A stretch of 30,231 nt of DNA from positions 1 through 30,231 of the IMG/VR virus record IMGVR_UViG_3300006738_000045, one strand, 5' to 3'. The translations under genes were made by a program, and so were the position numbers. Of the stretch, positions 4,460-27,683 are shown one piece after another (positions within the stretch are counted from its first letter, which is position 1; every line of letters starts with the position of its first letter). The notes under the pieces were generated by a model. That model was not told the origin of the DNA and ran no database searches. It saw only the letters and a list, made by a program, of their open reading frames with translations. This DNA is from a virus.

Positions 4460-6937
4460 ACCGGGTTTTCGGTACAGCTTTCCGAGCTTGTCAAGAAGTG
4501 GCATAGCCTCTTCCATTCGCTTGCGCTCTGCATCGCCATCTGGGTCTTGGTCGAAATAATCGTCGTCGTCTGCGTTGTCGAGGTGCTCTTGAAAGCGTTC
4601 GCGCAAGATACCAATCGCGTGCCCTATCCCTTTCATGAAAGTCCAACCAAAATCAGGCGCTATGTTTGTGTCAGTTTGCAGCCGCCCGCCAACTCGCGCC
4701 ATGTTTCCGTGATCCGACATTCTCACAACAACGGCCCGGTCCAACCGTCCTGATCCTCCCACCGCGCCGATGCCTGGAACTTTCAATTGTATGTACGCGC
4801 TGCCATACGATGCTCCACCTGAAAAATCAGTTTCGCCAACCTCTAGCCCCACCTTTTTGGCCCAAACCTTCATGGCGTCTATTTTTGCCGGTGCGTACCC
4901 GCCGTACGCGACATCGACCATGTCCGAAGCGTTTGCGTCATACCCAGCGTCATCGTGTTCGTTGTGGTCTTTAACGGCCTTGTTATACGCCTCTACCGCA
5001 GGCCCTTCTGCGCTCGCTCGCGCCTTCTTTCTCTTCTCCGAAGCCTCCCTTTTAAGCTGCCTCTTAGACTTTTCCTTCCACGCAATTGTATGCTTGGCGT
5101 CAGCCCACTTACCACCGCGAGGGCCGATGTAGGGACCGGATTTTGCTAATGACTTGCTTAGATTTCGATAAGCGTGGAGCATGTCTGCCCAATACGCTTT
5201 AGACTTGTTTACAGCCCCTGCCGCCCACTTGGGGTTCGTTTCTGCTTTTCCAAATACCGCTGCTGAAAAGGCTTCTGCCTCGTACTCGCTCCTGTTATCC
5301 ATAGCGTATGCGCTTGGCATGTCAGAGTTAGACAGCGTGGTGAATACAGGCTCTCCCCACGGATCTAAGCCATCTTGCGGTACGCCTAAGTGCTTTTGCG
5401 CTATTTCGTTGTACTTTTTCGATCCAAGCGCGTTGAGTATTCGGCCAGCCAGTATATGGCCTAACTCGTGTACGATAATGCCCTTGATCGACCCATCTAC
5501 CACCAGCCCTGCCGCCTCATCCCGTTGCTGTTTTAGCTTATTTACGTCCAGCCAAGTTGTGGGGTTGAGCTTGATTTTTTTACTGTCCTTAGTGGCGTGA
5601 GAATGGCCAAGATCATGATCTGCAATCACCACGCGGACATCTTGCAATTCTGGAAAAAGGCGGGTCACAAAAGTGACCGCCCCTGCTATTTCTGATTGAA
5701 CCTCTGGCGGGAGTCTTGCTATTTCATGCCCCTTAGTCCTTGTTGTCTGTTTTTCCTTCCAGGCTATCGTATGCTTCGCGTCAGCCCACTTGCCACCGCG
5801 TGGACCGATAAAAGGCCCTGCCTTGTATAGATAGCCCTTGGCCTTTACAAGGTTCGCTAACTGCGAGAATGAATACGCCTTGTATACAAGCCCCCACTCA
5901 TCATCGAACTCCATTCCCTCGGGGATGTGTTGCGTGTCGCATCTACAATTCGGGTGAACGGGCCAGATAGTAGCCTGCCACTGTGCGCGTTTTCGGCCTA
6001 CATTTGTACCATTGTTTATGAGGTCGCTCGCCTTGAAAACCCGTGGCCTGCCATCTCGTGTCATGTGTACACGTCGGCAATCAGCGCACGCGCTTGGCTC
6101 AGGTATTCTGGCTATGAGCGCGTCTGGGCCGTCCCATTCGATGGCCTCCAACACACTGCCCTCATTGTACGCACCCTGAAGCTCCGTTCGCGCTATCCGC
6201 TCCCAATTGCGACTCCAGTCACCAGTCCTGTGTGCAAGGTTTGATGCGAGCTTTTGCGCTGTACTAGATCTCCACTTCGTGTTGTTGGCGGTGGCTGCCG
6301 CCGTCTCTTCCCGAATGATATCGACAACCTCTGCACGCTTATCTGCGTCTGTCTCGCGCTCTATTTGCTCTCCGTTCCACACTTCCGCAAGCGTTGTTTC
6401 TGCTTCTGCTGTGACAATGTTACCTAGCCCTCGAACAAACGATCCTGCACGCTCCCTTGCTTGCGTCCAAGAGTGCCTCTGTAGGTCGGTCAAAAAGTCC
6501 GGTGGGTCCGGTGGTTTAGGCCCACCACCTCCCGATCCGGTCGGAGGAGGAGGAGGTGGTGGTGGAAGGTCAGGCGTATCGCCACCGATAGGTGTCACCG
6601 AGGGGATAGTCGGGGGTGGTGAACTTACCGAAGGGGCATCTCTGATGATTTGCTTGGCCCACTTCTTTGCGGGCCATCGGTCTGCCTGTTTTCGCCTCCC
6701 AGGTTCCATCGACTGCTTTGCGGCACCAATCATCATGGCCATCATGAGCGGGCGAGCAGCCAATACGTCCAGCCCTGCACGGGCTAAAATTGGTACCGGG
6801 ATATCAGGAAGTATCCCCATACTTCGCAACTCAGCGACCCTTTCCAGTGGAAGACCGAGGCTTTCTCCAAAAAGATCGTAGAGGAACCCATCGTGGTGCG
6901 CGGATACTATGTCATCTATTTTTGGTGGTAAGGACAT
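4457..6937 (-). CDS. MuF-like head protein fused to a zincin metallopeptidase
   Basis: The 826-residue protein contains an N-terminal helical region, a Pro/Gly-rich linker (about 104-147, including an eight-proline run), a MuF / SPP1 gp7-like domain (about 150-335: ARTELQGAYNEG, SACADC, and the hallmark WPVHPNCRC at 325-333), tag copy 1 (374-395), a zincin domain (about 400-570) with IIVHELGHIL (H490, E491, H494) and a downstream EYEAEAF (551-557) that can supply the third zinc ligand, tag copy 2 (601-622), and a C-terminal domain (about 640-826) of unknown fold. MuF proteins are minor head proteins encoded beside the portal, some ejected with DNA. The zincin may process virion proteins or act in the host. 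The ATG at 6937 overlaps the upstream stop as TAATG. The upstream portal gene supports the head assignment. Confidence 0.9.
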   Translation of the reverse strand: MSLPPKIDDIVSAHHDGFLYDLFGESLGLPLERVAELRSMGILPDIPVPILARAGLDVLAARPLMMAMMIGAAKQSMEPGRRKQADRWPAKKWAKQIIRDAPSVSSPPPTIPSVTPIGGDTPDLPPPPPPPPTGSGGGGPKPPDPPDFLTDLQRHSWTQARERAGSFVRGLGNIVTAEAETTLAEVWNGEQIERETDADKRAEVVDIIREETAAATANNTKWRSSTAQKLASNLAHRTGDWSRNWERIARTELQGAYNEGSVLEAIEWDGPDALIARIPEPSACADCRRVHMTRDGRPRVFKASDLINNGTNVGRKRAQWQATIWPVHPNCRCDTQHIPEGMEFDDEWGLVYKAYSFSQLANLVKAKGYLYKAGPFIGPRGGKWADAKHTIAWKEKQTTRTKGHEIARLPPEVQSEIAGAVTFVTRLFPELQDVRVVIADHDLGHSHATKDSKKIKLNPTTWLDVNKLKQQRDEAAGLVVDGSIKGIIVHELGHILAGRILNALGSKKYNEIAQKHLGVPQDGLDPWGEPVFTTLSNSDMPSAYAMDNRSEYEAEAFSAAVFGKAETNPKWAAGAVNKSKAYWADMLHAYRNLSKSLAKSGPYIGPRGGKWADAKHTIAWKEKSKRQLKREASEKRKKARASAEGPAVEAYNKAVKDHNEHDDAGYDANASDMVDVAYGGYAPAKIDAMKVWAKKVGLEVGETDFSGGASYGSAYIQLKVPGIGAVGGSGRLDRAVVVRMSDHGNMARVGGRLQTDTNIAPDFGWTFMKGIGHAIGILRERFQEHLDNADDDDYFDQDPDGDAERKRMEEAMPLLDKLGKLYRKPG
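5072..5137 (-). repeat. 22-residue shared tag, copy 2 (after the zincin)
   Basis: This encodes GPYIG followed by PRGGKWADAKHTIAWKE, residues 601-622 of the MuF-zincin protein, between the zincin and the unknown C-terminal domain. Confidence 0.9.
5753..5818 (-). repeat. 22-residue shared tag, copy 1 (between MuF and zincin)
   Basis: This encodes GPFIG followed by PRGGKWADAKHTIAWKE, residues 374-395, exactly at the MuF/zincin junction. It matches copy 3 residue for residue. Confidence 0.9.
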
Positions 6938-12998: not shown

Positions 12999-15900
12999 CT
13001 ACAAGATGAAGTATTGGTAAACGCCCGACGAAACCTCGTATTGGGTGAGAGTGACGGAGCCATAGTCTTGGTTAATGACGACGTTGGCTGTCGACCCGTC
13101 AATCCGGTCGTTTGTTGTGTCTACAAGCGCGATGGATATATTGTTCGCAGAAGCATTTCCATCCTGATCTTTGATGTGCCAAACCTGCCCGTCAGCTAAG
13201 TCTGAGCTTGGTAGGTTTACCTGATATGCGCCTGCACTGGTGTCCACAAGGATAACGCCGTGGCTTGTTGTTAGTTCTAGTGGGCTGTTGCCGGATGCGA
13301 GGATTGTGATTGCTTTCTCTTGAGCACCGCCACCACCTGAGGCATCAGACCAAACAACCTTCGTGTTGCTGTTGTCCCATGTAAGGACCTGGGCATCACT
13401 TGGTGTGTCTTGACCAATCTTTGTTACATCACCCGAAGAGTTAATCGTAAGCCCAGTGTTGGTTCCATGCGCCGTTCCGTGCCCAATCTCTAAGGTGTCG
13501 GTCCCGTCGTCAATACCAATTCGGTAGTCTTGAGCGTGACCGTCGAAGATAATCATAGAGTCTGCTTCAGTGGCAGAACCAATCGTTAAACCTGCTCCTA
13601 CGATTTCAACAGGCGTCAATACTGCCCCTGCGGTACGCAGCTTAAACGCAATCTTACCATCTTCAGAGCCATTAGAAACATCCGGGGATGTTGCTACGAT
13701 CTTCGCCATCATAGTGGACGAGCCGCCGTCGTCGTTGCCGTTAAAGACAATCTCGCCAATCTCATCGTTGTCAGCAGGAGAGGCGCTAGCATGATTCAAG
13801 AGAAGCGTTGGTGGGTTCGCACCAGCGTTTGTTGACACAATCTCAACCAGCGGCTTGTCATCTGTAGAGCTAGAGATTACTACGCTCGGCGAATCAATGG
13901 TCAGTGTTGTAGATGCGTTGATGTCAACCGTTGGCGCTGTCATATCCAGCGTTGTCCCAGCGTTCACCTCAAGGTGTCCGTTAGCAGACGCAAAGATTTC
14001 TTCACCACCACCAACGTCGTGGAACTTGAGCTTCGTAGTAAGAAGCAGGGCAAGCTCGTCTTCGGATGCGTCGTAGAGCACACCTTCGCTTGCGGTGGCA
14101 CTAAAGAGCCTTACGTCTACTCCAGTATCATCAACGCCGAATGTTGCGTCGCCTGTAATCAAAGATGTTCCGGCTACAGTAAGAGTGTGTGTTGGGGCAT
14201 CTGTATTGATACCCAAAAGAGATCCGGCTTTACCATATATGAGATTGTCACCAGCATTTTCTTCAATTTGTATAACGTCGCCTGTAGTCGAAAGAGCATC
14301 TCTAAGGTAGAAGGCGTTATTGCTTCCTCGATGACCCATTTGCCAATAGAGGCTTCCTTCTCTAAATTCTATTGCAGAGTTTGCTCCTGATAATGCCTCT
14401 AACGAAATTAAACAGTTGCTACTTGCGTTATGGAATGTTCCATCTCCGTTAACTGTAAGGTCGGTGGTAACTGATAAGTCACCGGCAACTGTTGTTGTGG
14501 ATGCTGCACCGGCAGCGATTGTTACGTCAATCTGACCATCAGTTGCGTGCTCACCCTCTAGGGTTAAGCCGGTCGTCATAGCTGTATTTGTACCATCGCT
14601 CTCAGCAACCTGAAGCTCTAATTTGCCTGCTTCGTCAGTTTCGTCGGATTCACTAATCGACGCTACAATGCCGGCAAACTGTGTATTATTATTTCCTTCA
14701 TCTTCGCCATAGAATGTGATCTGACCCAGAACCTCGCCGTCTTCTGTATCAGCAGCGTCTTTCAAGAACTGTAATTCACTTGAAGATGTCTTGGTTGTGT
14801 GCGTTGTTTTTAAGGTAAGCACTGGCTTACCAGCAGCACTGTCGGCAACTGTCACTGCTGGTCCGTCAATAGTTACTGCTGTTGAGGCGTTCATATCCAC
14901 TGTCGGCGCAGTCATGTCCAGCGTCGTACCAGCGTTCACCTCAAGGTGTCCGTCTGCTGAAGCAAAAATTTCCTCGCCACCACCTACATCATGAAACTTC
15001 AGCTTGGTTGTGAGTAACAAAGCAAGCTCGTCCTCGGAGGCGTCATAGAGCACACCCTCGGAAGCTGTCGCGCTAAACATACGCACGTCTACGCCCGTAT
15101 CGTCCACACCGAAAGTCACGTCACCTGTCGTGGCTAACGTGCCAGTGATCTCAAGGGGCTTGTTCATTTCCCATTGAGTGCCAGTGTGGTCATAAAGTAT
15201 CGTGGCGCTCGCGCCGTCAACCGAGATACCTGCACCATCAGCAGCAGCGGAATCCGCAGCGCCGGACGCAATAACGACTACCTTGTCGTCTACGGTAAGC
15301 GTGGTTGAGTTGATCGTCGTGGTCGTTCCGTCAACGGTCAAATTACCGGTCACGGTCAGGTTGTCGTTGACGGTCGTTTCGGAGGTTGAATGTCCAATAC
15401 TGATCGCCGTTCCGCTCGTGGTTCCCAACGAAATGCTCGCGACCCCTGAACCGGAATTTACAGCGTCAATGGTCAACGCCTTGGCGCTACTGCTGTTAGC
15501 GGTCATCGTAAGGTTAGTCGTATCGGTCCCGTCGATAGAAACGGTTGTTCCGTCTATCGTGACCCCGGTCGTAGCGTTGATGTCTACGTTCGCAGCCGAG
15601 GTTATATCAACCTCTCCCGAATTCGACGAAGTCACGGTCACGCCAGTGTGGCCGTCTACTGTCACAGTGCTCGCGTTGGAGTCAATAACGACAGCACCGC
15701 TGCTTGTCGCAACACTTACCGCCGCATCACCGGCTGTAATGTCATCTGCCGCAGTGGACCCACCGCTCGCAGCGACTATCGACGAGCCAGTGGTGATCTG
15801 AATGTCATTTCCCGCGTCTGTGGTGAAATACAATTCATTCGGTGTAGCTGTCTTGACCCACAACTGCCCGTAGGCGGCTGTGTCTGAATCAGCCGCCGCC

Positions 15901-16532
15901 TGCTCCTTGATGGTAACCGCGCCCTCAACCGATAGCTGAGTCTTTGGTGCTACGCCAACACCAACGCTGCCTTCGACGTAGAGGCCGCTCGTTGGCGGTG
16001 TGTTGCTGTGAACATTGTTCCCGATGGAGACGCCGCCAGCGTCCATGTCAATGGCCATCTTGACGTTTCCGGTTCGCCCACCGTCCGCGAACAATATCTC
16101 GCCCGCAGCGTCTGAGAAGAAAACCAGATCGGTACCGTCCTTGTTGGCAATTCCGATATCAGCCGCGCCAAAGGTGATCTTGTTTTCGTTCGTGGTGGTT
16201 CTAAACGCCAGGGGTGTAGCCGCACCCCAGTCTGTGAGGTCGCTTGAAGCAAGCGTGATAACCCCAGTCCTGCCTGCTACGCTTTGAATGTTACCGAAAA
16301 TACGGAGCCAGCGTCCAGCGGATGCGTCCGAACCAACATCCGTTGGGCGCACGATGTCGAAATCTTCCGACGTAGCCGTGCTGTCAGCATCCCACCGATA
16401 CTGGATTCCAGAATCCTCCACGAGTCGAACTTCTTTATCTGTTCGTACCGTAAGCGCCTTCAGTGCTGCGAGAGTCTGAACACCCTCTTTAGAGCTAGTT
16501 GTTGATACAGAGGCCCGTATTACAGTTGCCAT
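12999..16532 (-). CDS. Tail-fibre-like repetitive protein, 1177 residues
   Basis: This is a long, Thr/Ser/Asp/Gly-rich beta-repeat protein of the kind used as a phage fibre for host recognition. The N-terminal part holds VAGRTGVITLASSDLTDW (about 101-118), a motif common in fibres. The middle has many short LTVTGNLTVDGTTTTINSTT-like strands suggesting a trimeric beta-helix. An 87-residue module occurs twice (about 470-556 and 794-880). The C-terminus (VWHIKDQDGNASANNIS, ending SGVYQYFIL) looks like a compact tip domain; no S74 chaperone signature is seen. ATG 16532 has AGGAGAG upstream. Three small beta proteins follow within 8 bases. It could instead be a tail-spike or appendage; no lyase or hydrolase motif is visible. 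Confidence 0.82.
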   Translation of the reverse strand: MATVIRASVSTTSSKEGVQTLAALKALTVRTDKEVRLVEDSGIQYRWDADSTATSEDFDIVRPTDVGSDASAGRWLRIFGNIQSVAGRTGVITLASSDLTDWGAATPLAFRTTTNENKITFGAADIGIANKDGTDLVFFSDAAGEILFADGGRTGNVKMAIDMDAGGVSIGNNVHSNTPPTSGLYVEGSVGVGVAPKTQLSVEGAVTIKEQAAADSDTAAYGQLWVKTATPNELYFTTDAGNDIQITTGSSIVAASGGSTAADDITAGDAAVSVATSSGAVVIDSNASTVTVDGHTGVTVTSSNSGEVDITSAANVDINATTGVTIDGTTVSIDGTDTTNLTMTANSSSAKALTIDAVNSGSGVASISLGTTSGTAISIGHSTSETTVNDNLTVTGNLTVDGTTTTINSTTLTVDDKVVVIASGAADSAAADGAGISVDGASATILYDHTGTQWEMNKPLEITGTLATTGDVTFGVDDTGVDVRMFSATASEGVLYDASEDELALLLTTKLKFHDVGGGEEIFASADGHLEVNAGTTLDMTAPTVDMNASTAVTIDGPAVTVADSAAGKPVLTLKTTHTTKTSSSELQFLKDAADTEDGEVLGQITFYGEDEGNNNTQFAGIVASISESDETDEAGKLELQVAESDGTNTAMTTGLTLEGEHATDGQIDVTIAAGAASTTTVAGDLSVTTDLTVNGDGTFHNASSNCLISLEALSGANSAIEFREGSLYWQMGHRGSNNAFYLRDALSTTGDVIQIEENAGDNLIYGKAGSLLGINTDAPTHTLTVAGTSLITGDATFGVDDTGVDVRLFSATASEGVLYDASEDELALLLTTKLKFHDVGGGEEIFASANGHLEVNAGTTLDMTAPTVDINASTTLTIDSPSVVISSSTDDKPLVEIVSTNAGANPPTLLLNHASASPADNDEIGEIVFNGNDDGGSSTMMAKIVATSPDVSNGSEDGKIAFKLRTAGAVLTPVEIVGAGLTIGSATEADSMIIFDGHAQDYRIGIDDGTDTLEIGHGTAHGTNTGLTINSSGDVTKIGQDTPSDAQVLTWDNSNTKVVWSDASGGGGAQEKAITILASGNSPLELTTSHGVILVDTSAGAYQVNLPSSDLADGQVWHIKDQDGNASANNISIALVDTTNDRIDGSTANVVINQDYGSVTLTQYEVSSGVYQYFIL
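13893..14153 (-). repeat. Fibre module, second copy
   Basis: This encodes residues about 794-880 (GDATFGVDDTGVDVRLF to STTLTID). It is nearly identical in protein to the first copy but differs at many synonymous sites. Confidence 0.85.
14865..15125 (-). repeat. Fibre module, first copy
   Basis: This encodes residues about 470-556 (GDVTFGVDDTGVDVRMF to STAVTID). The two modules start 972 bases (324 codons) apart. Confidence 0.85.
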
Positions 16533-20910: not shown

Positions 20911-21360
20911 ATGACTGAAGATAAAATATGGGCAGACCGACTCATGTCAGAACACGACTACGACAGAGATAAGGCGGTCGCCAACATCCCAAAAAGCCTT
21001 ACCTCGGATCTCCAATTTTATATAGCCGACAAGCTTAGGCTATCGATGAACCCGAGCACGGAGGCTAAGGGCGCAATGAGTAAAAGAGATGAGTTAATTA
21101 ATCGGCTTGAAGGCCGGTACGCGGAGCGAGAGGCTCTTTCAAGGCAGCTAAAATATCGGCTCAACGTCGAAGAGCTTTTTAAAACGCTGGCTATCGATGT
21201 GCCCGAGGGTGAGCCAATCCGGTTCGATCCGGTTGGAGTGGCCGGTGACATCATCGCCATCAGCTACAAGGGTCGCCGTTACGCGCTACCAGAGCGAGTG
21301 ACCACAGAAGAGTGGTCTTTGCGCTTCGGGGTGTTAAAATACAAGTCGGATGGAGGTTAA
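20911..21360 (+). CDS. Hypothetical 149-residue protein
   Basis: ATG 20911 (MTEDKIWADRLMSEHDYDRD) follows AAGGAGC. A helical, charged first part (about 1-90) is followed by a possibly beta-barrel segment (VGVAGDIIAISYKGRRYALP). No family is recognised. The N-terminal region, with repeated Arg/Glu heptads (KRDELINRLEGRYAEREALS), could be a coiled coil. Confidence 0.7.
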   Translation: MTEDKIWADRLMSEHDYDRDKAVANIPKSLTSDLQFYIADKLRLSMNPSTEAKGAMSKRDELINRLEGRYAEREALSRQLKYRLNVEELFKTLAIDVPEGEPIRFDPVGVAGDIIAISYKGRRYALPERVTTEEWSLRFGVLKYKSDGG

Positions 21361-23209: not shown

Positions 23210-23779
23210 CTAATCTGTATCGAGGACAACGACGTTGTCACTCATGGCTCTCGCTACTGCGGTACCCAGGCTGTCTAGCACGTTGTCTGGTATCTTGTCG
23301 AGTAGCCTCATGTCGGCTTGGTTTATGTTGTTTTGCTGCATGTTGATTTCTGTGCTTATAGCCTGGATATTAACTTTATTCAGACCAAGCAATTCCGACT
23401 GCTGCTTGATGCTTGCCAGCACCAACCCCATCCAGCCCCTTCTTTCTCTGGCCTGAGTTTCATCAATCAATAAATTGGCGAAGGTCCAAGCGTCTCTTTG
23501 AACCTCCCTTGCCTCTGCTATCAGTCGCGCTCGCTCGGCCTCTAATCGTTCCGGCTCTACACTCTGGCTCCACTCAGCATGTATGTCTACGAGCCACCTG
23601 TTCATGGTGTTCCGGTCCACGCCCATATTTTTGCAGCATTCATGTGCGGTGGCACCTCGGAGAATTGCGGTCTTCGCCTGCGACTTCAGAATCTCAACCT
23701 CGGCGGCTGTTCTTCGGCCTGTGTTCCGCTTCTGAACTACCTTCTTCTTTCGCTTCGCTGGTGTCTTCTTAACAGCCAT
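23210..23779 (-). CDS. terS: Terminase small subunit (probable)
   Basis: The 189-residue protein from ATG 23779 has a very basic N-terminus (MAVKKTPAKRKKKVVQKR), a helix-turn-helix at about 36-64 (TAILRGATAHECCKNMGVDR, then NTMNRWL), a long helical middle, and a C-terminal part ending DNVVVLDTD. A small HTH protein with oligomerising helices is the usual terminase small-subunit layout; it would recognise the packaging site and recruit TerL. The start overlaps the upstream stop by 11 bases; a longer frame to 23893 is rejected as it lies wholly within the upstream gene. Another DNA-binding regulator is the main alternative. Confidence 0.65.
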   Translation of the reverse strand: MAVKKTPAKRKKKVVQKRNTGRRTAAEVEILKSQAKTAILRGATAHECCKNMGVDRNTMNRWLVDIHAEWSQSVEPERLEAERARLIAEAREVQRDAWTFANLLIDETQARERRGWMGLVLASIKQQSELLGLNKVNIQAISTEINMQQNNINQADMRLLDKIPDNVLDSLGTAVARAMSDNVVVLDTD

Positions 23780-24134
23780 CTTCAATGTACTCCCACCCGC
23801 TACATGGGTTCTGAATGCCCGTGCACCACATATACTCTTCGTCCCAAACACAACACACCCGCTGATCCGGCTCCATGAACCCAGGTCTGTCACACCAATC
23901 TGCGGTATCGATTGGATAAGGGGCTGTGAGGTCCATCAAAAAACTGCACGCGATATCCATTGGCTCTTCTTTGTGCGCGGATACGCAACAGTCTGGACAA
24001 GTTTCGCACTTATGCATAACGTAAGCATCGTGCCAAGAAGTGTGCGAATAGCTCGAATTTACAGCCGACACCCCAAGAATTGCGGCCAAAAGCGCAACTT
24101 TTTTTACGATTGCGAAAGAATCCTTTCCAACCAT
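23769..24134 (-). CDS. Exported Cys-rich protein, 121 residues
   Basis: A signal-peptide-like start (MVGKDSFAIVKKVALLAAIL, then GVSAVNS) is followed by a small domain with 11 cysteines (CETCPDCC, CSF, WCDR, RVCCVW, MWCTG, NPCSG, terminal C). Such density suggests disulfides after export or, less likely, metal binding. ATG 24134 overlaps the upstream stop as TGATG and the end overlaps terS, so it is translated with the replication/packaging genes. No family is recognised. It could act in the periplasm, for example in exclusion or envelope modification; this is inference. Confidence 0.7.
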   Translation of the reverse strand: MVGKDSFAIVKKVALLAAILGVSAVNSSYSHTSWHDAYVMHKCETCPDCCVSAHKEEPMDIACSFLMDLTAPYPIDTADWCDRPGFMEPDQRVCCVWDEEYMWCTGIQNPCSGWEYIEDGC

Positions 24135-24670
24135 CAGCCGACTCCCAACATCTTCGAGCCACCACTCTCCAAGGCTGTAGCTGTAGCAGCAGCAGCCGAT
24201 GTCTTATACGACTGGCGAAAAGCTGACATGAGCGCACGGTCACCTGACCTGCTTTCACATATCCTCTCCCAACCACCAACAGACTTAATGGCCCTCGACT
24301 TTGCGCGAGCGCGGATTGGATTCGTATCCAAGTCTTTAAGCGACGGGTGCTTGTAGTGGTGGAAGCGACCAACCAAAGACAGCACTTCACTAAAAGCATC
24401 TGCTGAGTCATCTATTATCGACAGACTCACGCGAGGTACCAACGACCTCAACTTTGCGGGCACCGGGAACCAAGGCTCCATCGATGTTTTAATAAAAGCT
24501 CGCACCGCCGAATTCAACTCGTGGTCTTCGATGTCTGAAAGCGCATCAGACCAAACAGCGATGAAGGCAGTCTGACCTTCTTGATCGTTCATATCTATGC
24601 CCGCAGGAGGTCTAAACCCGGCTGCAATTAGGCGTGTTATCGCGGAAGCTATGGTTCTAGGGTTAGCCAT
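24134..24670 (-). CDS. Replicative helicase loader candidate (G39P-like)
   Basis: The 178-residue protein from ATG 24670 (AGGAG upstream; GTG 24676 also possible) has a segment AFIAVWSDALSDIEDHELNS, then AVRAFIKTSMEPWFPVPAKL, resembling the N-terminal pattern of phage helicase loader/inhibitor proteins of the SPP1 G39P group (Trp, then Leu-x-Asp, a helix, Thr, and Pro-x-Pro). A later SVGGWERICE fits the same kind of protein. It lies directly after the initiator gene and near dnaB, where a loader is expected. It would deliver DnaB to the origin. Family match is from pattern only. Confidence 0.55.
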   Translation of the reverse strand: MANPRTIASAITRLIAAGFRPPAGIDMNDQEGQTAFIAVWSDALSDIEDHELNSAVRAFIKTSMEPWFPVPAKLRSLVPRVSLSIIDDSADAFSEVLSLVGRFHHYKHPSLKDLDTNPIRARAKSRAIKSVGGWERICESRSGDRALMSAFRQSYKTSAAAATATALESGGSKMLGVG

Positions 24671-25748
24671 TTTCACTCTCCTGCATCTCAGTTACTCGGT
24701 CGGCAGCGTTCATAAGCGATTGATAAGCTGCCCCCAGTCTACCAGAAGAAGAAGGAAATTGGGAGACACTATTCTTGCGGTCCAAAATAGCCTCCTCTGT
24801 ATCTAGCCTCGCCCAATACTCAAGATGTGGCCTCCAATCCCACGTAACATAGCCTCTACACGCCTGAAAGTACCTCTCGAACCATTCTGTACCCGAAACA
24901 TCCAAAACCTCGCATACAGAGGATTTGTGGCGTTTCCACTGGGCACGCAACTCTCGGATGACTTTATGCTCACGCTTACCCCTGGGTGGACGCTCGCGCT
25001 TACGCATCACGACCCACCCCTCGACCTTCGCTACAGAGTTGTACGCTTCGCGTATCTCTTCAAATGGAAAACCCGGCCAATCATCTTCAGCCGAAGGTTC
25101 CCCCTGCAAGGGGGTTAGGGGGTTTTGTTCTAATTCTCTTAATTGGATCTCTTTAATCCTATTAATTCGAGTACCACCCGTGTGGACATCCGCAGGTCCA
25201 CCCGTATGGTTTTCGAGGGCCTCGATTTCAGGCAACTCATTCTGCTCTGGAGTACCACCCGTATGGTACTCGATAGGAGTACCACCCGTGGGGCTCTCGA
25301 TTGGAGGTCCACCCGTGGGGTTTTCTTCTGGAGTGCCACCCTTGTGGACTTCGAGTGGAGTACCATCCCTATGGACCTCCACTTCAACCCGGCGCAATGC
25401 CGACAACGGCCTTAAAAGTCCGGGTTCAAACTCGTCTCTCCAGATGAACTGATAATTAAACGGCTTGTGTGCCCGTCGGTCACCCCTGTCTCTACTTTGA
25501 ACTATGTAGCCCTTGCTGGTTAGCTCTTCGAGCCTCTTGCGTAGGGTTTTGATGTTCACGGCCATGTCTTCGGCTAGTTTGCGCTGCTTGGGGTACGCTG
25601 CACCGTTCTCCCCGGCATATTTAGCTAGTAACGCCCATAGCAACTTTGCGCCTGGGCTTAGGTCGTTAGCAGTTAGGATGACCATCGGGATGTGTGCCCC
25701 CTGAAACGCTCTCCAGGGCCGAAAAACACATACCTTTTCGCTGGTCAT
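24663..25748 (-). CDS. Phage replication initiator, O-like, with nonapeptide repeats over an iteron array
   Basis: The 361-residue protein has an N-terminal winged-helix domain (about 22-105: LSPGAKLLWALLAKYAGENG, AYPKQRKLAEDMAVNIKTLR, KRLEELTSKGYIV) of the type found in lambda O-like initiators. A low-complexity stretch (about 125-195) repeats HTGGTPxE-like nonapeptides. The C-terminal half (about 225-361) has a basic segment (MRKRERPPRGKREHKV) and an aromatic one (YVTWDWRPHLEYWARLDT). ATG 25748 has GAGGTAAG upstream. The repeat stretch is encoded by DNA with 27-bp spaced inverted repeats followed by an AT-rich tract, so the gene probably contains its own origin. It overlaps the loader gene by 8 bases. 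Confidence 0.78.
   Translation of the reverse strand: MTSEKVCVFRPWRAFQGAHIPMVILTANDLSPGAKLLWALLAKYAGENGAAYPKQRKLAEDMAVNIKTLRKRLEELTSKGYIVQSRDRGDRRAHKPFNYQFIWRDEFEPGLLRPLSALRRVEVEVHRDGTPLEVHKGGTPEENPTGGPPIESPTGGTPIEYHTGGTPEQNELPEIEALENHTGGPADVHTGGTRINRIKEIQLRELEQNPLTPLQGEPSAEDDWPGFPFEEIREAYNSVAKVEGWVVMRKRERPPRGKREHKVIRELRAQWKRHKSSVCEVLDVSGTEWFERYFQACRGYVTWDWRPHLEYWARLDTEEAILDRKNSVSQFPSSSGRLGAAYQSLMNAADRVTEMQESENG
25122..25170. other. AT-rich tract beside the iterons, candidate unwinding region
   Basis: Thirty of the 40 bases at 25131-25170 are A or T, within a gene otherwise near 50-55% GC. It adjoins the last iteron on the 3' side of the initiator coding direction, as the AT-rich part of lambda ori does. 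Confidence 0.6.
25171..25376. repeat. Iteron array, candidate replication origin
   Basis: Seven copies of a 17-18 bp element start at 25171, 25195, 25252, 25279, 25306, 25333 and 25360; the last five are exactly 27 bp apart. The best copy, GTACCACCCGTATGGTAC (25252-25269), is an inverted repeat with arms extendable to 8 bp (GAGTACCA / TGGTACTC). Other copies keep the CCACCC core and degenerate arms (TGGAC or TGGTT on one side). Confidence 0.8.
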
Positions 25749-25818: not shown

Positions 25819-26298
25819 CTACGCTTGCTCTGCCACGTTGTCAAGCGGTTGTGAAAGTGCCTCGGAGGGCGCTGGAAGCTCTGCAAGGTCAGTCGGTGGG
25901 CACAGGTCTTTGGCGGCCTCCTCAACGGCATCGCTGTCCATTTCCATAAGCTCATCGGCATCGGCTTCGGCAATGGCCTCTTCCTCTTCGGCCTGGTTGG
26001 CGGCCTCGGTATCGCGCCGTTCAAGGTCACCCATGTAGCCCTCTTTGCTTGCGCTTTCGGCGGCTGCGGCAACGCGAGGGTCTTCCATGTAACCCTGCGA
26101 AATAGCGTGGTTTATCATCGTGTCGATACCGATTCGGGTAGCTGTAAGCACGATGGCGTTCAGTGTTATTTCACCGTCAACGAGTCCCGCTTCGGCCATT
26201 TTTTGGTAGATAGGAACAAGCTGTTGGGCTGCGTTTACGACTGCGGCCTCTTCTGGTGAAAGCTGGGGTCTTGGTGAAAGGTCAATTGGCTGGGTCAT
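25819..26298 (-). CDS. Hypothetical acidic protein between dnaB and initiator genes
   Basis: This 159-residue protein has a helical N-terminal half (LSPEEAAVVNAAQQLVPIYQ, KMAEAGLVDGEITLNAIVLT) and a very acidic second half (about 95-140: AEEEEAIAEADADELMEMDS). ATG 26298 overlaps the dnaB stop as ATGA. No family is recognised. Its place between helicase and initiator suggests a replication accessory or DNA-mimic role; this is inference. Confidence 0.75.
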   Translation of the reverse strand: MTQPIDLSPRPQLSPEEAAVVNAAQQLVPIYQKMAEAGLVDGEITLNAIVLTATRIGIDTMINHAISQGYMEDPRVAAAAESASKEGYMGDLERRDTEAANQAEEEEAIAEADADELMEMDSDAVEEAAKDLCPPTDLAELPAPSEALSQPLDNVAEQA

Positions 26299-27683
26299 CT
26301 GTCATCTCCATAGCGATTGGCCCAAACTTGGGCCTGGGTAGTAGTAGTGTGTGAATAGGAATGATTTGGAATGTAAGGATTCTCGTTCTTAAAAATGTTA
26401 CGTTCAGCATCGAAGTCAAGTGTGACGATTCCGGTTGGGCCATTGCGCTGCTTTGCTACAATAACTTCAGCCTTCCCTTTGTCCTGAGTATTCGGGTCGT
26501 AGACCTCATCTCGATACAGGAACATAACGGCGTCAGCATCCTGCTCGATTGAGCCAGACTCTCGCAGGTCCGAGAGTATAGGCCGCTTACTAGCCCTCCC
26601 GTCAACCTGACGATTAAGTTGAGCCAGCGCGATGATGGGGATGTCTAGCTCAAGAGCGATAGCCTTGATGGTCCGGCTCATATCAGCTACCGCCTGTTCT
26701 CGATTGCCAAAGCCTTTCCTGGGCATTACTAGCTGGAGGTAGTCGATGATAAGCATGTCACATTGGTTACGCATTTTCATTCGACGAGCGAACATCCTAA
26801 GCCCATCGATATTGATTCTGGTCTGGACTGAGATGTACAGCGGGAGAGGCTGGATATTCCTAGCGCCCTTCTCAAGTCTACCAACATCGTATTCGCTGAT
26901 ATCCCCTCGCCTAATGTTCTGCATAGACACACCCGACTCCATCGCCATGAGCCGGTCTGCCATCTGCTCTTCGGACATCTCAAGGGACACGAATGCGACA
27001 GATCTATCTTTTCGTGTTGCGTTAAGCGATAGGCTTAGGGCGAACGCGCTTTTTCCCATTCCCGGTCGAGCCGCCACTACAATGTAGTTTCCACCGTGAA
27101 ATCCAAGAGTGAGTTCGTCTAACTTATCGTAACCGCTAGGAATTCCGATGCTGCTCTCTTCTCGTTCCAATGCTTCCTTCGTTTTAGCGAGGCGCTCGGT
27201 AACGATGTCGGCGGCTGGTCTGGCCTCGGGCTCATCCCGGTCCTCGACGGTCGTCAAGAGCGATTGGATCGCGGTTGCCGCAACGGAGTCCGGGGCCTCT
27301 TCGGTCCTAGCAGCCTTCGCAATTTTGTGTGCGTTTAGGATTAATTGTCTACGAAGCGAATGCGCTTTGATTATGTCTACATATTGTTCAGCGATGACTG
27401 GCACGCACGTATGGTCAAGTAGTTCCATCACGTATGTCGCACCACCGACAACATCGAGTTCATGTGCGAGGGTTAGCCGGTCGATAACCTCGGTAGCGTC
27501 TGGATTCCGACCGTCCTTCACTACCTTCTTGACGGCCTGCCAAATGACACCGTGTGCGGTCTTGAAAAAATCGTCTGGGGATATCTTCTCACCAATGAGA
27601 ATGTATGTTTGAGGGTCTAATAATACTGTGCCTAAAATCGCCTGCTCAGCCTGTAGCGAATTTGGAAACGCTTTTGGGTCCAT
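26295..27683 (-). CDS. dnaB: Replicative DNA helicase, DnaB family
   Basis: The 462-residue protein is close to the usual DnaB length. The N-terminal domain (about 5-105, LQAEQAILGTVLLDPQTY) precedes a linker and the RecA-like ATPase domain: IPSGYDKLDELTLGF (181-195), Walker A ARPGMGKSA (205-213), SLEMSEEQ (233-240), Walker B MLIIDYLQL (310-318), AQLNRQVD and SDLRESGSIEQDAD. It unwinds DNA 5' to 3' ahead of the replication fork as a hexamer. ATG 27683 has GGAAGG upstream. It follows a terminator-like hairpin, so it is probably the first gene of the replication operon, with loader and initiator genes downstream. Confidence 0.95.
   Translation of the reverse strand: MDPKAFPNSLQAEQAILGTVLLDPQTYILIGEKISPDDFFKTAHGVIWQAVKKVVKDGRNPDATEVIDRLTLAHELDVVGGATYVMELLDHTCVPVIAEQYVDIIKAHSLRRQLILNAHKIAKAARTEEAPDSVAATAIQSLLTTVEDRDEPEARPAADIVTERLAKTKEALEREESSIGIPSGYDKLDELTLGFHGGNYIVVAARPGMGKSAFALSLSLNATRKDRSVAFVSLEMSEEQMADRLMAMESGVSMQNIRRGDISEYDVGRLEKGARNIQPLPLYISVQTRINIDGLRMFARRMKMRNQCDMLIIDYLQLVMPRKGFGNREQAVADMSRTIKAIALELDIPIIALAQLNRQVDGRASKRPILSDLRESGSIEQDADAVMFLYRDEVYDPNTQDKGKAEVIVAKQRNGPTGIVTLDFDAERNIFKNENPYIPNHSYSHTTTTQAQVWANRYGDDR

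Follow-up and report, generated by a model that had tools for sequence, protein, structure and literature searches.

Does a run of short repeats inside a phage initiator gene mark the place where replication starts, or does it belong to a repetitive protein linker? The locus in question lies in the IMG/VR record IMGVR_UViG_3300006738_000045, analyzed here as a window of 30,231 bp (the whole stretch of DNA considered), and an initial annotation had interpreted it as a lambda-like origin. Judging from its sequence, the stretch is very probably a phage replication origin that sits where the initiator gene encodes the protein's linker, which would give the predicted origin of an uncultivated phage single-base coordinates. 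Matches to both the large and the small terminase subunit in the PHROG search identify the source as a tailed phage; the small subunit match (23210–23893) lies approximately 0.8 kb past the initiator gene.

The features of the replication region are collected in Table 1. The DnaB gene is located upstream of the initiator gene on the same strand, and the 180-aa gene overlaps the 3′ end of the initiator gene. Where helicase genes had been announced in the plural, one DnaB gene (27683–26295) was found, giving the module a phage DnaB helicase as in the SPP1 type, and no second helicase was detected among the eight window proteins scanned. By its position alone, the 180-aa gene is a candidate for the helicase loader; its match, phrog_9804, is a family without assigned function, single matches in phages (marginal, E 0.3) and in the PDB (E 0.72) were both weak, and its predicted structure was of low confidence (pLDDT 40). 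A scan for promoters and terminators gave results near chance. Elsewhere in the window, a 1177-aa protein (12999–16532, minus strand) carries long internal Ser/Thr/Ala-rich repeats and resembles a fibre or tail spike by eye.

Table 1. Replication region of the phage, in window coordinates.
Feature	Position	Strand	Basis
DnaB-family replicative helicase	26295..27683	-	PF03796 1.9e-91, PF00772 1.2e-21
159-aa gene between helicase and initiator	25819..26298	-	no Pfam or PHROGs match at E ≤0.01
Initiator gene, 361 aa	24663..25748	-	PF13730 HTH_36 8e-14; PHROG replication-initiation families
Winged-helix domain, presumed iteron binder	25503..25664	-	PF13730 match; secondary-structure order of the model
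Iteron, first in gene order	25357..25379		consensus and weight matrix
Iteron	25330..25352		consensus and weight matrix
Iteron	25303..25325		consensus and weight matrix
Iteron	25276..25298		consensus and weight matrix
Iteron, perfect 8-bp arms, 6-bp spacer	25249..25271		consensus, weight matrix and arm pairing
Iteron	25192..25214		consensus and weight matrix
Iteron adjoining the A+T-rich tract	25168..25190		consensus and weight matrix
A+T-rich tract, presumed DNA unwinding element	25128..25167		77.5% A+T; recoding test
C-terminal part of initiator, presumed helicase/loader contact	24663..25160	-	analogy with lambda O, SPP1 G38P and pSK41 Rep
180-aa gene, candidate helicase loader	24134..24676	-	position alone; phrog_9804

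The initiator carries an HTH_36 winged-helix domain at aa 29–82 (PF13730, 51.6 bits with a curated cut-off of 25), so that the array indeed lies within the gene of a winged-helix protein, 3′ of the domain. Its PHROG matches comprise several replication-initiation families, including 270 and 1032 (best phrog_270, 1e-9), and a low-confidence structure model (pLDDT 36) gave the order helix-helix-helix-strand-strand for the winged-helix region. The Pfam domain of lambda O (Phage_rep_O) was absent among its Pfam matches at E ≤0.01, as was RepA_N (pfam06970), and the ‘O-like’ PHROG matches were weak (1e-4 and 4e-4). Judged by Pfam, the initiator belongs to neither the lambda O nor the RepA_N protein family. 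A tblastn search of the initiator in phages returned no match at E 1e-3 and only marginal ones up to E 10, a megablast of the replication module found no relatives, and a search of viral contigs found a 99% copy as the sole close relative of the initiator. This copy belongs to IMGVR_UViG_3300025118_000006 (78,499 bp), the only close relative of the phage that was found, with 99.95% identity and 15 differences over the whole window.

Seven 23-bp units were located between 25168 and 25379, within the linker-coding part of the initiator gene. All of them match the consensus GGAGTACCACCCGTRTGGWNYTC with 0–3 mismatches, while none of 100 shuffles did, although the pattern was itself derived from the same data. 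Their starts are spaced by 24, 57, 27, 27, 27 and 27 bp, which bears out the seven units and the exact 27-bp period of five of them as initially described; these five are the ones farthest from the A+T tract. All seven are read in one frame, and the five have a 9-aa period. On the 78.5-kb relative, a weight matrix scored the seven array sites at 28.5–31.8 bits and nothing beyond the array above 13.4 bits, so that no second, oriR-like array was seen in this record, which may be incomplete. GC skew over the 78.5 kb was mainly one-sided, without a switch at the array, and is uninformative as an origin indicator.

Since all units share one frame, they were compared with synonymous recodings. The mean unit-to-unit identity of 17.29 of 23 positions exceeded both the 14.05 obtained under codon-usage recoding and the 15.44 under shuffling of synonymous codons within the array (0/5000 as high in either case). 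Dyad pairs summed over the units behaved likewise, with 47 of 77 against 32.2 ± 2.3 under codon-usage recoding (0/5000) and 38.9 ± 2.6 under within-array shuffling (10/5000). Duplicated copies are not independent, and therefore the palindromy of each unit was also tested singly, giving p values under recoding of 0.023, 0.35, 0.0067, 0.33, 0.68, 0.13 and 0.021 in order of position. The description of the units as inverted repeats thus holds in part: the unit at 25249 pairs in 8 of 8 arm positions and the summed dyads lie above both nulls, but the other six pair in 4–6 of 8, palindromy is poor in the units at 25192, 25276 and 25303, and the consensus-level palindrome test for the window array was non-significant (p 0.15).

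The differences among the units point the same way. Among their codons, 71 differences are nonsynonymous and 33 synonymous, and third positions hold a share of 0.40 of the unit-to-unit differences, i.e., no bias (permutation p 0.30). Taken together with the excess over synonymous recoding, this places the signal in the DNA and not in the peptide, and what is found is a DNA-constrained iteron array within the gene, 3′ of the DNA-binding domain. Tandem duplication of coding sequence accounts for part of the similarity, as all seven units lie in one frame. Most likely, the Gly/Thr/Pro nonapeptides arise from translation of the iterons and are tolerated as part of a flexible linker. The proposal that DNA and protein roles are overlaid here does not fit the lack of third-position bias; the repeated peptide seems to be a side effect of the DNA array rather than a second function.

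Directly 3′ of the array in gene order follows the A+T-rich tract. The 75% A+T first reported for a 40-bp stretch beside the array was reproduced at 25127–25166, and a shift by one base raises the value to 77.5%, the highest of all 40-mers in the window. Only 11 of 20000 recodings of the codons of the tract reached the observed A+T content. In the 78.5-kb relative, the tract has 75% A+T and ranks in the top 0.055% of 40-mers, below that record's maximum of 0.80 (40-mers starting at 5154–5159). By composition and position, the tract is a putative unwinding element adjacent to the array.

The differences between the two phages are unevenly distributed. Five of the 15 fall inside 37 bp (25146–25182) that span the A+T tract and the adjacent iteron, a cluster that random placement did not produce in 200,000 trials. 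The initiator gene as a whole holds five differences, three of them protein-changing, and the two changes within the iteron fall at positions that vary among the units. One could read the origin core as a rapidly switching specificity region, in which alleles are replaced and the initiator is otherwise kept; the proposed reading of the array would permit this, since changes in the linker peptide would be tolerated, and such a replacement would mean an escape from a satellite or from incompatibility. We consider this unlikely, though worth stating. Three further differences are clustered in 17 bp (21263–21279), which makes short recombination tracts or mixed assemblies possible.

For a broader comparison, HTH_36 initiator genes were surveyed, chosen regardless of repeats at a genome match threshold of 1e-8. 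Matches came from the class of a Stenotrophomonas genome (17/274 genomes) and its family (13/149, two genomes being common to both lists), the phylum of a Desulfatitalea genome (16/297), the class of a Paenibacillus genome (44/200, with loci taken for 30 of 56 matches) and the class of a Microbacterium genome (10/197), together with two phage records. From 87 genes collected, 17 were dropped as short, near-duplicate or masked, leaving 70 for analysis; L161 was included at 24.1 bits against the family cut-off of 25, and the weak HTH_36 matches L162–L176, among them L163 and L165 in DnaB-bearing phage records, were left out. An array was called from four or more 18-mers, each allowed up to 4 mismatches, and, more strictly, when it held more copies than any of 20 synonymous shuffles. 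Applied to lambda O, the finder returned exactly the four annotated iterons, in frames 0, 2, 2 and 1.

At least four copies were present in 34 of the 70 genes, and the array exceeded the shuffles in 28 of the 70, which leaves 42 without an array by the same test. By group, arrays were found in 15/24 genes of the Stenotrophomonas class and family, 4/23 of the Paenibacillus class, 2/14 of the Desulfatitalea phylum, 5/7 of the Microbacterium class and 2/2 from phage records. Control ORFs of at least 200 aa from the same loci reached four copies in 12 of 101 cases and exceeded the shuffles in two, which overlap each other in locus L249; earlier, looser controls had given 0/79 with at least four copies, or 15/124 with masked stretches kept. 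The units use several frames or strands in 26 of the 28 arrays. Because the shuffle test favors multi-frame arrays, the count before this filter is also given: 29 of 34 change frame or strand, and five (L186, L213, L228, L237 and L262) are single-frame. Spacings in the relatives are chiefly 21–24 bp, with 27 bp also found beyond the window. One unit lies inside or before the winged helix in L195, L200 and L263 and the units are scattered in L258, so that chance may have contributed to a few arrays. Over all relatives there is an excess of dyad symmetry (Fisher 4e-5), but six perfect arm pairs occur in only nine of the 28. It had been suggested that relatives keeping the nonapeptides and losing the palindromes would speak against an origin; the opposite was seen with respect to the repeats, as arrays recur with differing peptides and frames, while the palindromes are perfect in just that minority.

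The gene's richest 40 bp in A+T lay between −10 and +45 bp of the 3′ end of the array in 22 of 28 genes with arrays, where 6.8% were expected (binomial 5e-21); this count breaks ties towards the array, and 17 of 28 remain if all tied peaks must fall there. In the matching linker stretch, with about 20% expected, the peak was found in 23/28 genes with arrays vs 17/36 with fewer than four copies, so that an A+T-rich linker is partly a family-wide trait, or else the test overlooked origins in part of these genes. The A+T peak is therefore a weaker clue to an origin than it first appeared. Some of these 36 genes may hold origins of a different form.

Other routes to relatives were less productive. 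Besides the same phage, 25 contigs carry TerL relatives at 45–53% identity, and among the 11 such records searched, only G012 contains both HTH_36 and DnaB, while the others may be fragments. In one TerL relative, the linker of an HTH_36-like gene (L161) holds two inverted units besides five 21-bp units that agree at all of the 18 matched bp. A scan of viral contigs for the paired-unit DNA pattern returned 12 stretches, one being the same phage and 11 whose covering frames contained no initiator (seven of these coding for Thr-Gly-Gly repeat proteins), and the same scan of genome contigs gave at least 100 stretches, a few of which were used as handles.

These data also bear on the readings that compete with an origin. 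If the units were repeats of the protein, a linker expanded in frame with a DNA similarity left over merely from recent duplication, the single frame of all seven, the 9-aa period of five and the single-frame minority among the relatives would follow naturally. DNA identity and palindromy above the synonymous nulls do not, nor do the preponderance of nonsynonymous changes without a third-position excess, an A+T tract that its peptide leaves unexplained, and relatives whose arrays, even before the shuffle filter, mostly change frame or strand; we regard this account as improbable.

Just as improbable, in our estimate, is a binding site with a purpose other than initiation, be it an autoregulatory operator, a partition site or a packaging (pac) site. 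Direct repeats do mark partition sites as well, as the parS repeats in the available portion of PMC7157519 illustrate, and the terminase small subunit match is close by; yet the array sits inside the initiator gene, away from its start, and the recurrence of arrays within initiator genes, often abutting the A+T peak, fits an origin. The palindromes might, at last, act as mRNA hairpins regulating the initiator or downstream genes. As RNA, the coding strand of the array gave a better fold than its shuffles (z −3.2, 0/200 as good), and so did the opposite strand as DNA (z −3.0, 0/200). However, such folding arises from any inverted repeats, and pairing of the six arm positions is incomplete in 19 of the 28 arrays of the relatives. 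We regard this reading as very improbable.

The observations behind the origin reading come from the sequences themselves, namely the repeats, the DNA-level constraint on them, the A+T tract, the gene neighborhood and the arrays that recur within related initiator genes. In the mechanism we propose, the N-terminal winged helix of the initiator would bind the seven iterons, the resulting nucleoprotein complex would melt the adjoining A+T-rich tract, and the C-terminal part would load the phage DnaB there, perhaps together with the 180-aa product. The survey suggests that for many HTH_36 prophage initiators the gene itself reveals the origin, through a linker array that is often followed directly 3′ by an A+T peak. 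Such a gene-based reading would open origin prediction and direct binding tests for many unstudied phages. Within titles and abstract openings, chiefly of open papers, no earlier work was found that had surveyed HTH_36 initiators for in-gene arrays.

With regards to known systems, the lambda-like interpretation is supported by the layout shared with lambda O and SPP1 gene 38 and by the arrays in related genes. In lambda and related phages, the central part of O contains the iterons and an A+T-rich region, and the single iterons are imperfect inverted repeats, as described in a part of PMC7466680; palindromic units, once put forward as a contrast to lambda, are hence no distinction from it. As in lambda ori, the iterons here are followed by an A+T-rich tract in the same order within the initiator gene, and the A+T peak of lambda O begins 3 bp past iteron 4. 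Lambda has four iterons spaced 20–24 bp apart in several frames, whereas here there are seven, five of them at 27 bp, in one frame. Lambda recruits the DnaB of its host via P, in contrast to this phage with its own DnaB gene, and in this respect the phage is closer to SPP1.

According to the available portion of PMC6316719, SPP1 oriL lies in gene 38 and consists of direct repeats and an A+T-rich unwinding element, with initiation by gp38, gp39 (the loader) and gp40 (DnaB family). An in-gene origin of repeats plus an A+T-rich element is common to both phages, as is a phage DnaB-family helicase in the module, but SPP1 has a second origin, oriR, while no second array appears in the 78.5-kb relative. 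A further parallel is provided by the RepA_N plasmid pSK41. As described in a part of PMC5703833, its initiator uses an N-terminal winged-helix domain to bind four Rep boxes situated midway along rep; the origin sequence encodes a linker that the protein can do without, and a separate domain forms the C-terminal part. For pPR9, the same text reports a hybrid initiator with a putative N-terminal HTH of pfam13730. This is the same family, PF13730, as in the window initiator. Both pSK41 and pPR9 are staphylococcal plasmids whose copy number is controlled by antisense RNA and whose initiators contact DnaG through the C-terminal domain, whereas here the initiator is part of a phage module with its own DnaB. 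The arrangement as such is already known from lambda O, SPP1 gene 38 and pSK41/pPR9, and by its sequence the window belongs to the same kind.
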